Below, piece after piece: positions 37,110 to 41,940 of a DNA stretch of 64,000 nucleotides (position 1 is the stretch's first letter; the number at the start of each line of letters is the position of its first letter). The DNA lies in assembly GCA_024644595.1 (NCBI GenBank), contig JAHEHL010000001.1, positions 1 through 64,000 on the forward strand, given 5' to 3'. The stretch comes from Porticoccaceae bacterium (lineage in GTDB: Bacteria > Pseudomonadota > Gammaproteobacteria > Pseudomonadales > Porticoccaceae). The position numbers and the translations under genes are program-made. The notes below the pieces were generated by a model. It was not told the DNA's origin. It worked only from the letters and a program-made list of their open reading frames with translations, and searched no databases.

Positions 37110-38393
37110 ATGAGCACTGGCAAAACATTTAAAGCCTGCCCGCTATTTGATGCACACAAGACTTTTGTACGTCTACCGATGGGCGCGAAAATGCTTGATG
37201 GTTATCCCGATTCAAAACATTTCCTCGACACTGTATGTAAACAGATTGGCGATGCCGGTGAAGACTTTCAGTACACTCAGGCATTTCTTAAAAGTTACAG
37301 CCGCAAAAGCGAAGCCACATACCGAGGTTATCGCAATGAAGTTGAGCGTCTGTTGTTGTGGGCGTGGACCGTTGCTGGCAAGAGTGTTATCCAGCTCAAG
37401 CGCCCAGATCTTGAGAGCTACTTTGACTTTGTCCACACTCCGCCAGCAGCCTGGGTTGGCAGTTCGGTTCAGGATCGCTTTAAAATAATCGGCGGAGAGT
37501 GCCGTCAAAATGAAAATTGGCGGCCATTTGCCGGGAAACTCGCCAAAGAAGACCGTAAACAAGCAATGGTGGAGGGCGTTGATATCCAGGTTTCCCGAGA
37601 TCATCACACGTTATCTCACGAGGCGATGAAAATCTGTTATTCCGCAGTGTCTTGCTTTTATGATTATTTAACCGACGAAGGCTACGCATTCGGTAACCCT
37701 ATTCCGGCTATCCGCAAGCAATCACCCTATCTGATCAAAGGCGCTACACAAAAGAATATTAAGCGCCTCTCTGATCTGCAGTGGGACTATGTGCTCGAGT
37801 GCGCTGAGCATGCTGCAGATAAAGAGCCGCTTCAGGAGCGTATGCTATTTGTGATCGCAACTCTAAAAACCCTTTATTTAAGGGTGTCAGAGCTCTCTGA
37901 TCGCACCAATTGGCAGCCGGTCTGGAAACATTACTGGCAGGACAGCGACGGCAATAACTGGCTTAAAGTGCTTGGCAAAGGCAATAAGCTTCGCGATGTA
38001 TCGGTGCCAAGCGCCCTATTACCCTACATCGACCGCTATCAGCGCTACAGGGCGTCGTTAAGCCCGGCGTTCGGTATAAATTCAACATTGGTTGCGAAGA
38101 ATCGAGGTTCTGGTGGAATGACCTCACGCCAACTGCGACGAATTGTTCAGGAAGCATTTGACTTGGCTTACGACAAAATGGTCGCTGAAGGATTTGGCAA
38201 GGAGGCAAAGGCACTTCGGGAAGCCACCACTCACTGGCTCAGGCATACTGGTGCTTCGCAAGATATTGCGACAAGACCGTTAAAGCATATGTCTGATGAT
38301 CTTGGTCACTCGAGTATGGGAACGACGGATCAGGTCTATATTCAATCCGATATGAAAGAGCGCGCCCGATCAGGAAAAGGGCGTGACGTTTAG
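37110..38393 (+). CDS. Solitary tyrosine recombinase/integrase
   Basis: 427-residue site-specific recombinase. An N-terminal SAM-like core-binding domain (about 50-190) leads into a catalytic domain with the complete active set: Arg258 (LYLRVSELSDR), Lys290 (LGKGNKLRDV), His375/Arg378 (THWLRHTG), His400 (DDLGHSSMGT) and nucleophile Tyr410. The protein is intact, so it is likely active. No att-type repeat, excisionase, other phage gene or tRNA is adjacent. It stands between prc and a glutamine synthetase-like gene. The upstream 299 bp are A/T-rich and contain no gene. Target site unknown. Confidence 0.9.
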   Translation: MSTGKTFKACPLFDAHKTFVRLPMGAKMLDGYPDSKHFLDTVCKQIGDAGEDFQYTQAFLKSYSRKSEATYRGYRNEVERLLLWAWTVAGKSVIQLKRPDLESYFDFVHTPPAAWVGSSVQDRFKIIGGECRQNENWRPFAGKLAKEDRKQAMVEGVDIQVSRDHHTLSHEAMKICYSAVSCFYDYLTDEGYAFGNPIPAIRKQSPYLIKGATQKNIKRLSDLQWDYVLECAEHAADKEPLQERMLFVIATLKTLYLRVSELSDRTNWQPVWKHYWQDSDGNNWLKVLGKGNKLRDVSVPSALLPYIDRYQRYRASLSPAFGINSTLVAKNRGSGGMTSRQLRRIVQEAFDLAYDKMVAEGFGKEAKALREATTHWLRHTGASQDIATRPLKHMSDDLGHSSMGTTDQVYIQSDMKERARSGKGRDV

Positions 38394-38563: not shown

Positions 38564-39907
38564 TTAGACATTCAGTAGCAGGAACTCGCGCTCCCAGGAT
38601 GAAATTACCCGGTTAAACTCTTCAAATTCCACCAGTTTGATGGAGGTGTAAAGCTGGATAAATTCTTTACCAAAGATCTCAATAATATCGCTATCTTCCT
38701 GCAGTCCTCGCAGGGCCTCTTCCAGTGTTCTGGGCAGCGCCAGCTCCTCTTCGTAGGCATTGCCTTCAAATGGTGCTGAAGCGCGGAGCCCCTTTTTCAT
38801 GCCGAGATAGCCGCAAGCAAGTGTCGCAGCAATAGATAGATATGGGTTGACATCTGCTCCTGGAAATCGGTTTTCGATGCGAAAATCCTTTGGCAGCGCA
38901 TCTGGCACGCGGAGCCCTGTAGTCCGATTATCAAAGCCCCAGTGCAGGTTGATCGGTGCAGCAACTTCGCGGGTAAAGCGCCGATATGAGTTTACATTTG
39001 GAGCAAAGAAGCTCATCACATAAGGTGTATAGGTCTGCAGCCCGCCCAAATACTGATAGAACGCCTCACTGTACTGCCCGTCTGGGGTGGCAAAAATATT
39101 GCTGCCATCCTTGAGCGACAGCACGCTTTGGTGGATATGCTTCGCCGACCCCGGCTCTGTCGCCATCGGTTTAGCCATAAATGTGGCATAAATATCATGT
39201 TTTAAAGCCGTCTCGCGCACCATGCGCTTAAATGTAAAAACCTGATCGGCGAGCGCCAGTGGATCGCCGTGAATAAAGTTGACTTCTAGTTGTGCGGCGC
39301 CAGATTCATGAATCAGCGTGTCAACATCAAGTCCCATGGCGTCGCTATAGCTGTACATCGTCTCGACAAATGGCTCAAATTCATTGGCTGCATCGATGCT
39401 GTAGGATTGTCGCGCTGTTTCAGGCCGCCCCGAGCGCCCTACTGGCGGCTTCAGAGCCAGATCCGGGTCGAGGTTCTTTTCGATCAAATAGAACTCCACC
39501 TCAGGTGCGATTACCGGTTGCAGACCTTCGGCTCGATACAGTTCGAGGATCCGCTTTAATACATTGCGCGAAGAGAATGGGTGTGGCTTGCCGTCTTTGG
39601 TGTAGCAATCGTGAATAATCTGTCCGGTTGCTTCGTTGGCCCAGGGCACTAGGCGCATGCTACTTGGATCTGGCTCCAGTAGCATATCGCCGTCAATGGT
39701 TCCGAGCAGGTCCCAGAAATCGTCTGAGTATTCGCCTGTGACTGTTTGCGCCAATATGCCTTCGGGGAGACGGCTGTCTTCCTTAACAAACTTGTTTGCC
39801 GGGATAAATTTGCCCCGGGCATTGCCGGTGATGTCGGGCACCAGGCACTCGACTTCAGTAATGTTGTGTTTTTTTAGCCAATCTTCGATGGCTTTTTCGG
39901 ACTGCAT
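38564..39907 (-). CDS. Glutamine synthetase family protein (gamma-glutamylputrescine synthetase-like)
   Basis: Type-I glutamine synthetase fold that ligates glutamate to an amine. Most like PuuA, which makes gamma-glutamylputrescine. The 447-residue protein has VPDITGNARGKFIPANKF near the start, APEVEFYLIEKN (metal Glu), QLEVNFIHGDPLALADQ, the GS signature FMAKPMATEPGSAKHIHQSV, and NSYRRFTREVAAPINLHWG. It is divergent from an FAD oxidase and a TetR gene through two operator-like repeats. Glutamylation of another amine is possible. Confidence 0.85.
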   Translation of the reverse strand: MQSEKAIEDWLKKHNITEVECLVPDITGNARGKFIPANKFVKEDSRLPEGILAQTVTGEYSDDFWDLLGTIDGDMLLEPDPSSMRLVPWANEATGQIIHDCYTKDGKPHPFSSRNVLKRILELYRAEGLQPVIAPEVEFYLIEKNLDPDLALKPPVGRSGRPETARQSYSIDAANEFEPFVETMYSYSDAMGLDVDTLIHESGAAQLEVNFIHGDPLALADQVFTFKRMVRETALKHDIYATFMAKPMATEPGSAKHIHQSVLSLKDGSNIFATPDGQYSEAFYQYLGGLQTYTPYVMSFFAPNVNSYRRFTREVAAPINLHWGFDNRTTGLRVPDALPKDFRIENRFPGADVNPYLSIAATLACGYLGMKKGLRASAPFEGNAYEEELALPRTLEEALRGLQEDSDIIEIFGKEFIQLYTSIKLVEFEEFNRVISSWEREFLLLNV

Positions 39908-39955
39908 AAATCACCTATCCACAGGTTGTATATGATTGGGAATTTTACATTATTT

Positions 39956-39972
39956 TTCGAACAATTGTTCAA
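39956..39972. promoter_or_regulatory. Operator-like site 1 (TetR?)
   Basis: TTCGAACAATTGTTCAA, containing the perfect 12-bp palindrome GAACAATTGTTC. It lies in the 129-bp spacer between the puuA-like and puuB-like genes. It matches site 2 (reverse orientation) at 14 of 17 positions, with centres 23 bp apart. The TetR encoded downstream at 41311 is the likely binder, which is inference. Confidence 0.6.
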
Positions 39973-39978
39973 TTAATG

Positions 39979-39995
39979 TTGAATTATTATTCGAA
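39979..39995. promoter_or_regulatory. Operator-like site 2 (TetR?)
   Basis: On the minus strand TTCGAATAATAATTCAA, a second copy of site 1 (14 of 17 identities). The arrangement would allow one regulator to shut both divergent promoters. Confidence 0.58.
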
Positions 39996-40036
39996 AACAT
40001 CATAATGTCAATTTTTACAGACAGAAAATTCTGCTT

Positions 40037-41308
40037 ATGACAGCGGTTAACTCCTATTACATAGACAGTGCAGATACACAGCTTCGCTACCCTTCTTTGG
40101 TGGGAGAGCGAACAGCGGACATCTGTATTGTTGGCGCAGGCTACACGGGCCTATCATCGGCTTTACACCTCGCCGAGCGCGGCTATTCCGTGGTTGTGCT
40201 TGAGGCGGCGCAAGTCGGATTCGGTGCCTCGGGTCGCAATGGTGGTCATGTTGGGGTGGGTCAGCGCAAAGATCAGTTCTATCTAGAGAAGCAGTTTGGT
40301 CAAGAGATTGCGCGAGGGCTTTGGGATATGGGTCTTGAAGCCGTTGAGACAGTAAGGCAGCTTGTTGCACGCTACAGTATTGACTGTGATCTGAAACAGG
40401 GGATTATGCACCTCGCACATAGACGCAAGTACTGCGTCGAGCTGCAGCAAGAGGTGGACCATCTGCGTCACAACTATCAGTTTGATGAAATACAGTATAT
40501 CCCCGAGGCTGCCCTGCCCGATTATATCGATAGCACGGCGTATTTTGGCGCTCAGCTGGATAACGTGTCAATGCACCTGCATCCGCTTAAGTACGCTCAG
40601 GGATTGGCCAGGGCCGCGTCAGATGCGGGGGTTCAGATCTTTGAGCATTCCAAGGTCTTGAGTTACACCCAGAGCGGGTCTGTTATCGTGCGTACCGCCG
40701 GTGGTCAGGTAACGGCCAAGGAGCTGGTACTGGCCTGCAATGGTTATATTGACAAGCTCGAGCCGCGCATTAACGGCTACATTATGCCGATCAATAACTT
40801 TGTGCTTGCAACCGAGCCGCTGTCAGACACGCAGGCCAAAGCAGTCAGTGCCCATGACACCGCCATGCAAGACACCCGTTTTGTGATTAATTATTGGAAG
40901 TTGTCGGCCGATAATCGTTTGATCTTCGGTGGCGGTGAGAATTACCGGCGCGGCTTCCCTGCAGATATAAGAGGCTTTGTGCGCAAATATATGCTTCAGG
41001 TCTATCCTCAGTTGAGCCAGACTAATATTGATTATGGTTGGGGCGGTACTCTCGCGATCACACTTAATCGGCTGCCTCATTTCGGTCGTATTGGCCGCAA
41101 TATATGGCATTTACAGGGCTATTCCGGTCATGGCGTCCCGACGGCGACCTTTGCTGGGAAATTGGTTGCTGAGGCGATCAGCGGCAAGTTGGAACGCTTT
41201 GATCTTATGGCTGGTCTGCCGACGCATAAGTTTCCCGGTGGAACGCTACTGCGCTGGCCTGGCATGGTAGCAGGAATGCTTTATTTCGCGCTGCGAGACA
41301 GGATTTAA
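40037..41308 (+). CDS. FAD-dependent oxidoreductase (gamma-glutamylputrescine oxidase-like)
   Basis: DAO-family flavoenzyme resembling PuuB, which oxidises gamma-glutamylputrescine to the aldehyde. The 423-residue protein has the dinucleotide-binding ADICIVGAGYTGLSSALHLA (about 27-46), the FGASGRNGGHVGVGQR flavin-site motif and the C-terminal NIWHLQGYSGHGVPTATFAG. It pairs with the divergent PuuA-like gene, so the two would act in series on the same amine. It is followed after 2 bp by a TetR gene. Confidence 0.83.
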   Translation: MTAVNSYYIDSADTQLRYPSLVGERTADICIVGAGYTGLSSALHLAERGYSVVVLEAAQVGFGASGRNGGHVGVGQRKDQFYLEKQFGQEIARGLWDMGLEAVETVRQLVARYSIDCDLKQGIMHLAHRRKYCVELQQEVDHLRHNYQFDEIQYIPEAALPDYIDSTAYFGAQLDNVSMHLHPLKYAQGLARAASDAGVQIFEHSKVLSYTQSGSVIVRTAGGQVTAKELVLACNGYIDKLEPRINGYIMPINNFVLATEPLSDTQAKAVSAHDTAMQDTRFVINYWKLSADNRLIFGGGENYRRGFPADIRGFVRKYMLQVYPQLSQTNIDYGWGGTLAITLNRLPHFGRIGRNIWHLQGYSGHGVPTATFAGKLVAEAISGKLERFDLMAGLPTHKFPGGTLLRWPGMVAGMLYFALRDRI

Positions 41309-41310
41309 CG

Positions 41311-41940
41311 ATGTCGAATCTACGAGCCCTTACGCCTCGCAATACGCCGGTCCAGAAGCGTGCTCTGGAGCGTCGTGCGCAAATCTTAGACGTTACGGCT
41401 GTGCTGCTTGAAGAGGTCGGGCAGGACGATCTGACAACAATTTTGGTGGCGAAGCGCGCAGGCATTTCGGTCGGCACGCTCTACCATTATTTCCCCAATA
41501 AATACGCAATTCTCTATGCGCTTGCAGAGCACTGGCTGGGTGAAATTGATCGAGTTTTACGTGAACTTGAGCTGGAGCGCGTTGAATCGCTGAGTCTGAA
41601 GCGATTTGTAGATAAAGCGGTCGATCAGTTGCTCCAGGTCTACACCCATCAGCGGGGTCTATTGCCGTTGGTTCAGGCCATGTTTGGTGTTCCGGAGTTA
41701 AAAGATCTGGATGCTGCGCACGATGAGTTGATCATCAGCGCCATGGCGCGAATGTTTGCGCGAATGGAAGTGGCTGAGCGCCCTTCTGAGCTGTCACGCC
41801 TGGGTCGCGCGTTTCTTGAAGTGAACCACGCGCTGTTGCTGGTTGTGGTTAATCAGAACAAAGTCGACAGCTTAAAGACTCTCGCAGACCTTAAGTATCT
41901 CAGTCTTAGCCTGCTGGAGCGGGCAAAGAGCCAGTTCTAA
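41311..41940 (+). CDS. TetR family regulator of the puuA/puuB-like genes
   Basis: 209-residue regulator with HTH in KRALERRAQILDVTAVLLEE ... LVAKRAGISVGTLYHYFPNK (about 16-65) and a helical C-terminal domain. The start follows the oxidase stop by 2 bp, so both are co-transcribed. It probably binds the two operator-like sites at 39956-39995 and answers to an amine or its glutamyl derivative. E. coli uses PuuR, an XRE-type repressor, so a TetR controller is a different solution. Confidence 0.82.
   Translation: MSNLRALTPRNTPVQKRALERRAQILDVTAVLLEEVGQDDLTTILVAKRAGISVGTLYHYFPNKYAILYALAEHWLGEIDRVLRELELERVESLSLKRFVDKAVDQLLQVYTHQRGLLPLVQAMFGVPELKDLDAAHDELIISAMARMFARMEVAERPSELSRLGRAFLEVNHALLLVVVNQNKVDSLKTLADLKYLSLSLLERAKSQF

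Follow-up and report, generated by a model that had tools for sequence, protein, structure and literature searches.

Introduction

The puu divergon of Escherichia coli (puuP-puuA / puuDRCBE) offers the nearest described parallel to the locus presented here: a synthetase gene diverges from an arm carrying the PuuB-type oxidase gene, both arms share one spacer, and a local repressor, PuuR, is encoded on the oxidase arm. Generally, local autorepressors such as TetR, BetI, KstR and EthR act at palindromic operators, and a divergent promoter controlled by such a TetR autorepressor is in itself an ordinary device.

In the literature consulted, known regulators of γ-glutamylation genes comprise the XRE-cupin proteins PuuR, PauR and PA0535, together with EpuRI, EpuRII and GlnR of Streptomyces (PMC9397018, PMC8998196, PMC7901475, PMC6529630). 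In Pseudomonas, PauR and PA0535 are likewise described as inhibitors of γ-glutamylation genes, the PauR motif being palindromic (PMC7901475); as XRE-cupin proteins they belong to a different family from the TetR protein described below. In Streptomyces, EpuRI represses a γ-glutamylethanolamide synthetase gene and EpuRII binds the promoter of a γ-glutamylpolyamine synthetase gene (PMC6529630, PMC8998196); both are actinobacterial and can be likened to the present regulator by description only. Among the matches listed in the open literature (including PMC9951944 and PMC5403932), which leaves subscription journals mostly outside, none reports a TetR protein controlling a γ-glutamyl polyamine pathway.

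Here, we are describing a locus of a Porticoccaceae bacterium (assembly GCA_024644595.1) contained in a window of 64,000 nucleotides (contig JAHEHL010000001.1, positions 1 to 64,000), in which, judged from sequence, a repressor of the TetR type and not of the PuuR type very probably switches a gene pair for the degradation of γ-glutamyl amines, likely polyamines.

The divergent locus and its products

The locus consists of three genes and one shared spacer, given in window coordinates:

38564–39907, minus strand: synthetase-like gene of the glutamine synthetase (GS)-like type, putative γ-glutamyl-amine synthetase (PF00120, 337.5 bits)
39908–40036, no strand: divergent intergenic spacer of 129 bp, by open reading frame (ORF) coordinates
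40037–41308, plus strand: FAD-dependent oxidase of the DAO family, PuuB homologue (PF01266, 229 bits)
41311–41940, plus strand: TetR-family regulator gene, beginning 2 bp past the oxidase stop codon (PF00440 and PF17918)

The synthetase and oxidase arms diverge from one AT-rich spacer (GC 26%) with a regulator gene close by, which is the layout of a Puu-type divergon. The initial annotation had named the region puuA/puuB-like, with a 129-bp spacer and a tetR gene 2 bp behind the oxidase gene; the latter two statements agree with the ORF coordinates, and the naming holds as homology but not as functional equivalence. The oxidase is a full-length DAO-family homologue of E. coli PuuB (41% identity over 421 columns, E 1e-114). 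The synthetase shares 33% identity with E. coli PuuA over 455 columns and stays below the NCBIfam cut-offs both for GlnA (247 bits; cut-off 429) and for the PuuA equivalog GGputSyn, NF045547 (177 bits; cut-off 650). By eye, none of puuC, puuD and puuE is evident among the window ORFs between 34000 and 46000. A gene for a XerC-like tyrosine recombinase (37110–38393; PF00589 at the cut-off, 27.2 versus 27.1 bits) adjoins the synthetase gene, and XerC-like ORFs are also neighbours in several loci of the SAR92 group.

The regulator belongs to the TetR family (PF00440, 48.3 bits, cut-off 24; PF17918, 44 bits, cut-off 26.8), and with its TetR_N and TetR_C_15 domains and no HTH_3 or cupin domain it differs from E. 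coli PuuR (HTH_3 plus Cupin_2), as had been proposed. Its predicted structure is a nine-helix TetR fold (mean pLDDT 92.2), closest to 3mvp (TM 0.72) and EthR, 1t56 (TM 0.76; both normalised to the query), and thus generic, giving no clue to the ligand. None of the 13 listed NCBIfam TetR equivalogs fits, the best being KstR (39.9 bits; cut-off 280) and BetI (37.1 bits; cut-off 118). Resemblance to TetR, BetI, KstR and EthR lies in the fold, the palindromic sites and the co-directional regulator gene. Four other, weakly similar TetR-like proteins are encoded in the same genome.

Two palindromes in the spacer

The initial annotation had pointed out two mirrored 17-mers, one at 39956–39972 and one on the other strand at 39979–39995, matching at 14 of 17 positions. 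Their sequences, strands, coordinates and identity are as described, and each contains a palindrome of the form GAAY-N4-RTTC. The centre-to-centre distance of 23 bp is correct for the 17-mer frames; the centres of the inner palindromes lie 22 bp apart. As read from the sequence, the putative sites are hence palindromes 22 bp apart and not asymmetric operators 23 bp apart:

39957–39972, plus strand: putative operator 1, TCGAACAATTGTTCAA, with the palindromic core GAACAATTGTTC at 39959–39970; its middle bases differ among relatives
39979–39994, plus strand: putative operator 2, TTGAATTATTATTCGA, with the core GAATTATTATTC at 39981–39992; 11 of the 12 core columns are invariant in 27 SAR92-group spacers

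A mirrored match of at least 14/17 within the spacer arises in 14 of 300 dinucleotide shuffles, so that the statistic originally put forward is weak. Two GAAYN4RTTC palindromes 15–50 bp apart, by comparison, occur in 5 of 20,000 dinucleotide shuffles of the spacer, and in the 2.38-Mb assembly exact YYGAAYNATNRTTCRR is present at these two sites only (reversed control pattern, 1). The E. coli K-12 puu region examined, including the 211-bp puuA-puuD spacer, contains no GAAYN4RTTC.

Outside the spacer, the same genome has 25 weaker sites with up to two mismatches (1 + 24; controls, 1–2 and 15 per strand). A larger regulon in this genome was considered and set aside, as all five of these sites that were examined (L038, L039, L040, L044 and L048) fall inside ORFs.

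Predicted interlocked promoters

Two divergent promoters can be predicted around operator 2:

40006–40011, minus strand: TTGACA, -35 hexamer of the synthetase promoter, inside the invariant block 40003–40012
39983–39988, minus strand: -10 hexamer AATAAT of the same promoter, at 17-bp spacing and within operator 2
39979–39984, plus strand: TTGAAT, -35 hexamer of the oxidase-tetR promoter, within operator 2
40001–40006, plus strand: -10 hexamer CATAAT of the same promoter, at 16-bp spacing; base 40006 is common to the opposite -35 hexamer

The predicted synthetase promoter, TTGACA-17-AATAAT, agrees with the sigma70 consensus at 11 of 12 positions and the predicted oxidase-tetR promoter, TTGAAT-16-CATAAT, at 9 of 12; the -10 hexamer of the latter is weaker, GGTAAT or GCTAAT, in six relatives (L049–L052, L054 and L055). 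A third, weaker candidate on the minus strand, TGAACA-18-TAAAAT (39971–39942), makes use of operator 1 and could be an alternative synthetase promoter. All hexamers are consensus matches only, with three promoters found against 0.9 expected in shuffles. Given that the two main promoters overlap almost fully, polymerase could serve only one of them at a time.

Conservation was assessed in an alignment of 27 spacers, i.e., the present one and 26 from the 31 named SAR92 loci, those in which palindrome pair, synthetase and oxidase are all present, none being dropped as redundant. The operators and their linker average 1.65–1.97 bits per column, compared with 0.4 in the left and 0.9 in the right flank, and operator 2 is the more conserved of the two. 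Past operator 2, the 10-bp block 40003–40012 is invariant in 27/27 spacers. A leader peptide starting from the ATG in this block was rejected, being out of frame with the oxidase (40005 versus 40037); the block is therefore read as the -35 region of the opposite strand. It accompanies the synthetase gene: where a named SAR92 locus has both the pair and the synthetase, the TTGACA block is there too (26/26, in addition to the present locus), and where it has the pair but not the synthetase, the block is missing (found in 0/3). The palindromes themselves are kept in each of these 29 named loci. Absence of the block together with the synthetase, with the palindromes staying in place, indicates that promoter constraint and operator constraint are separable.

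Conservation within the genus and absence of the enzyme genes

The genus sample comprised 50 genomes, the present one included, and 44 of them have a TetR match at E 1e-15; named relatives such as HTCC2207 and MOLA455 place the present genome in the SAR92 group (Porticoccaceae). Among the 43 relatives with a match, loci were fetched for 29. The initial annotation had named a lack of conservation of the repeats in orthologous spacers as a refutation of its reading. Within the genus this refutation does not apply: the pair is kept at exactly 22 bp in 28 of these 29 loci, besides the present one; the exception, L012, begins inside the oxidase gene. A scan of the 50 whole genomes for the pair, as GAAYN4RTTC-N10-GAAYN4RTTC, gave exactly one match each in 38 of them, and none for the reversed control.

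Presence of the pair follows presence of a close TetR orthologue. A TetR match reaching 64% identity or more is present in 39 genomes, one TetR fragment (G005) and one broken tetR (G045) included, and 38 of these carry the pair; in the single miss (G035) the contig ends inside the oxidase gene. The pair is found in 0/11 of the remaining genomes, six of which have no TetR match at E 1e-15 and five a match of 39–45% only. These genus counts are phylogenetically dependent. In G045 (C25:33251-33884), tetR is split into two frames with stops and the operator pair is intact.

Three genomes of 93–98% completeness (G048, G028 and G047; loci L016, L017 and L034) give no match to the synthetase or the oxidase at E 1e-30. 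Their tetR is retained at 70–77% identity, with the pair starting within about 150 bp upstream of it, and by eye the order of a recombinase-like ORF, tetR and a reductase-like ORF is kept. Since the pair stands directly before tetR where the enzyme genes are absent, it belongs to the TetR and not to the enzyme genes; taken together, the operator-like palindromes lie 5' of the oxidase-tetR unit or, without the enzymes, directly 5' of tetR. For genomes without the enzymes, another target was looked for and rejected: of the consensus sites that eight genomes have away from the tetR locus, 8/8 lie inside ORFs.

The five genomes with only a diverged TetR (39–45%) are small (1.2–1.7 Mb), and neither the enzymes nor the pair were found in them. 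One palindrome is left in L145 and L146, 60–70 bp upstream of tetR, and L144, L147 and L148 (the last containing N bases) have none upstream of tetR. The enzyme-less and the diverged states are related by descent and may reflect few events; the three genomes without the amine genes may represent one loss.

Occurrence beyond the genus

Among the best 80 of a larger number of named-genome loci, the order GS(-), oxidase(+), TetR(+) is found in 72, in some of them with intervening genes, e.g., a PuuD homologue plus a second GS in L086 and, in L092, the gene for a TonB-dependent receptor, which separates tetR from the oxidase gene. In the same best 80, the pair is present in 52 (44 at 22 bp and 8 at 23 bp), with similar pairs 22–23 bp apart in Microbulbifer and Halieaceae relatives, and 28 lack an exact pair at this spacing; conservation of the repeats thus extends to many lineages, but not to all. 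Within these 28, three loci begin within the oxidase gene, one arm is degenerate in some, L085 and L087 have a site elsewhere than the usual pair, and L122, L125 and L128 show no recognisable site in the spacer. Three related palindromes per spacer, about 42–44 and 101 bp apart and not all satisfying the strict consensus, are seen in four Oceanospirillaceae (L093, L108, L115 and L117), a spacing that suggests a different multi-site layout or looping. A stricter 22-bp pair, GAAYNATNRTTC-N10-GAAYNATNRTTC, was found in 13 of 390 genomes sampled from the order, at one place each (reversed control, 0).

Marinomonas loci have weak sites only in the spacer. In Marinomonas G051, a site TTGAACGATCGTTCAA (L191:1503) lies between a different tetR-like gene, identified by eye, and another gene; it is probably the operator of that different TetR-like regulator, so that the consensus is not exclusive to the regulator at 41311.

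Outside Porticoccaceae, as assigned by record title, the promoter cassette appears mirrored in 19 of the 21 pair-bearing loci, where TTGATT-17-TAT[TC]AT points towards the oxidase with its -10 hexamer in operator 1. The mirrored promoter is absent from L082 and L084; the SAR92 orientation is seen in L081 and L090, two loci that were grouped with the SAR92 side. This contrast in cassette orientation is evident when L083–L124 (Microbulbifer, Halieaceae and others) are set against window positions 39957–40012. The outer half-sites outside Porticoccaceae are mostly CCGAA..TTCGG. Among 38 orthologous TetR sequences, the recognition-helix motif SVG[TS]xYHYFPNK is common, with one V-to-I change, and residue 56 is T in Porticoccaceae sequences and in L082, and S elsewhere. 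The T/S shift goes along with a relaxation of the outer bases (CC to TC/TT), but also with phylogeny, and is therefore only a lead.

Proposed regulation and alternative explanations

The reading to which we assign a probability of roughly 0.85 is that the TetR protein whose gene lies at 41311–41940 uses the two palindromes as its operators; TetR dimers would block both promoters, and with them tetR, until an amine of the pathway releases the dimers. Binding, cooperativity, repression, ligand and substrate are all parts that we infer. One TetR dimer would sit on each palindrome. Operator 2 holds the synthetase -10 and the oxidase-tetR -35, i.e., it overlaps the cores of both divergent sigma70-type promoters, and a dimer bound there would therefore shut both. 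Operator 1 is located just downstream of the predicted synthetase start and two helical turns away; with a spacing of 22–23 bp, both dimers would be placed on the same face of the helix, consistent with a second dimer that binds, probably, in a cooperative manner. The position of tetR 2 bp behind the oxidase gene implies that it would repress itself. The inducer would be a substrate or intermediate of the γ-glutamyl amine pathway—putrescine, another polyamine, or a γ-glutamyl form—upon whose build-up TetR would release the DNA and the synthetase and the oxidase would be made together.

The conserved block could instead be, in the main, two interlocked core promoters whose divergent TTGAAY -35 and AT-rich -10 elements produce the palindromy, with no TetR binding. 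Such an origin would account for the fact that the most conserved operator is the one containing a -10 and a -35 hexamer, and for the use of operator 1 as a -35 element by the weaker minus-strand candidate, but it leaves unexplained both the three enzyme-less loci, which lack TTGACA and have both palindromes at 22 bp, and the single palindromes at unlinked puuC and puuB homologues; we consider it improbable. That another TetR or other regulator of the cell binds the palindromes, the link to the neighbouring tetR being coincidental, is slightly more improbable still: the genome does encode four further TetR-like proteins, and the Marinomonas site lies beside a different tetR, but in the genus the pair goes with the 41311-type tetR in all but one genome, remains next to it in genomes that have no enzyme genes, and is missing wherever a close orthologue is missing. 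A chance pattern in AT-rich DNA, which the shuffled mirrored matches might have suggested, is refuted by conservation in the genus loci, the genus genomes, the order sample and the aligned spacers, and its probability is negligible.

Pathway and substrate

Assuming that the palindromes are TetR operators, single sites elsewhere bear on the pathway. A scan of 14 genomes with the single-site consensus gave 44 sites (reversed control, 14), of which 19 are in the synthetase-oxidase (or PuuD-GS) spacer. Each of the other 25 was examined, with 11 falling within ORFs and 14 between them. Five of these 14, in four other genomes, precede amine-degradation genes: homologues of PuuC in two cases (50% and 57% identical to the E. 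coli protein) and of PuuB in one (64%), a further aldehyde dehydrogenase with 37% identity to PuuC, and a second GS with 42% identity to PuuA. The other nine have no evident amine gene immediately downstream. Not counted among the five is the site in G060 (L085), a perfect palindrome that precedes an oxidase gene by about 0.5 kb. Moreover, homologues of PuuD (L085 and L086) and of PotF (L105 and L108), all below equivalog cut-offs, adjoin the synthetase gene. Sites before Puu-type genes, together with PuuD and PotF neighbours, favour a polyamine as the substrate, which we regard as reasonably probable with a monoamine as the remaining alternative.

With the same operators and repressor, the substrate could be other than a polyamine, for instance ethanolamine, methylamine or another monoamine handled by a GS-like ligase. 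The closest solved chain to the synthetase is 5dm3 (179 bits), deposited as an L-glutamine synthetase. We take this to be the Chromohalobacter enzyme whose gene adjoins that of an ethanolamine transporter. A glutamate-methylamine ligase is matched as well (9qur, 137 bits), and the synthetase misses the PuuA cut-off. Marine ethanolamine pathways with a γ-glutamylase do exist (PMC10132767); the route described there includes a γ-glutamylethanolamide dehydrogenase, whereas the partner enzyme here is a PuuB homologue. Considering also that the same site precedes PuuC and PuuB homologues and that PuuD or PotF homologues are neighbours in relatives, a non-polyamine substrate is unlikely, though less so than the alternatives above.

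An unlinked cluster of polyamine type is present in the same genome (C3:46000-65900, L197), comprising a second GS (38% to PuuA), a PuuD homologue, an aminotransferase, a TonB-receptor-like ORF (by eye), a lysA-like decarboxylase and an Lrp/LysM-type regulator. No consensus operator is present in this cluster; its palindromes are two looser ones, both within ORFs.

Implications

Polyamines are a labile source of nitrogen and carbon in seawater, and SAR92-type bacteria are common in coastal plankton. Set against the open literature covered, what is new about the locus is the pathway, the operator and the interlocked, orientation-swapped promoter cassette. A broader proposal, which we put forward tentatively and with the odds somewhat against it, is that an undescribed TetR family replaces PuuR/PauR as the switch of γ-glutamyl polyamine catabolism in marine Gammaproteobacteria, by means of a cassette of about 55 bp in which divergent promoters are interlocked over one operator, with RNA polymerase on one at a time, and which would have opposite orientations, its strong promoter facing the synthetase in Porticoccaceae and the oxidase in Microbulbifer/Halieaceae.

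The 16-bp operator and its regulator would make a regulon for γ-glutamyl amine use computable in Porticoccaceae, Microbulbifer, Halieaceae and relatives, and the operator may help to assign substrates to GS-like genes annotated merely as glutamine synthetase. A further site, GAATNATNRTTCGG, is located just past the oxidase gene in three Microbulbifer-type loci (L101:2365, L109:2339 and L119:2358), the position at which the related locus L092 has its TonB-dependent receptor gene; a TonB receptor may be part of the regulon. The TetR protein is a candidate amine sensor for reporter strains, and the natural series of loci—intact, with enzymes absent and operator kept, and with a degenerate operator—may illustrate how a regulator can outlive its targets.
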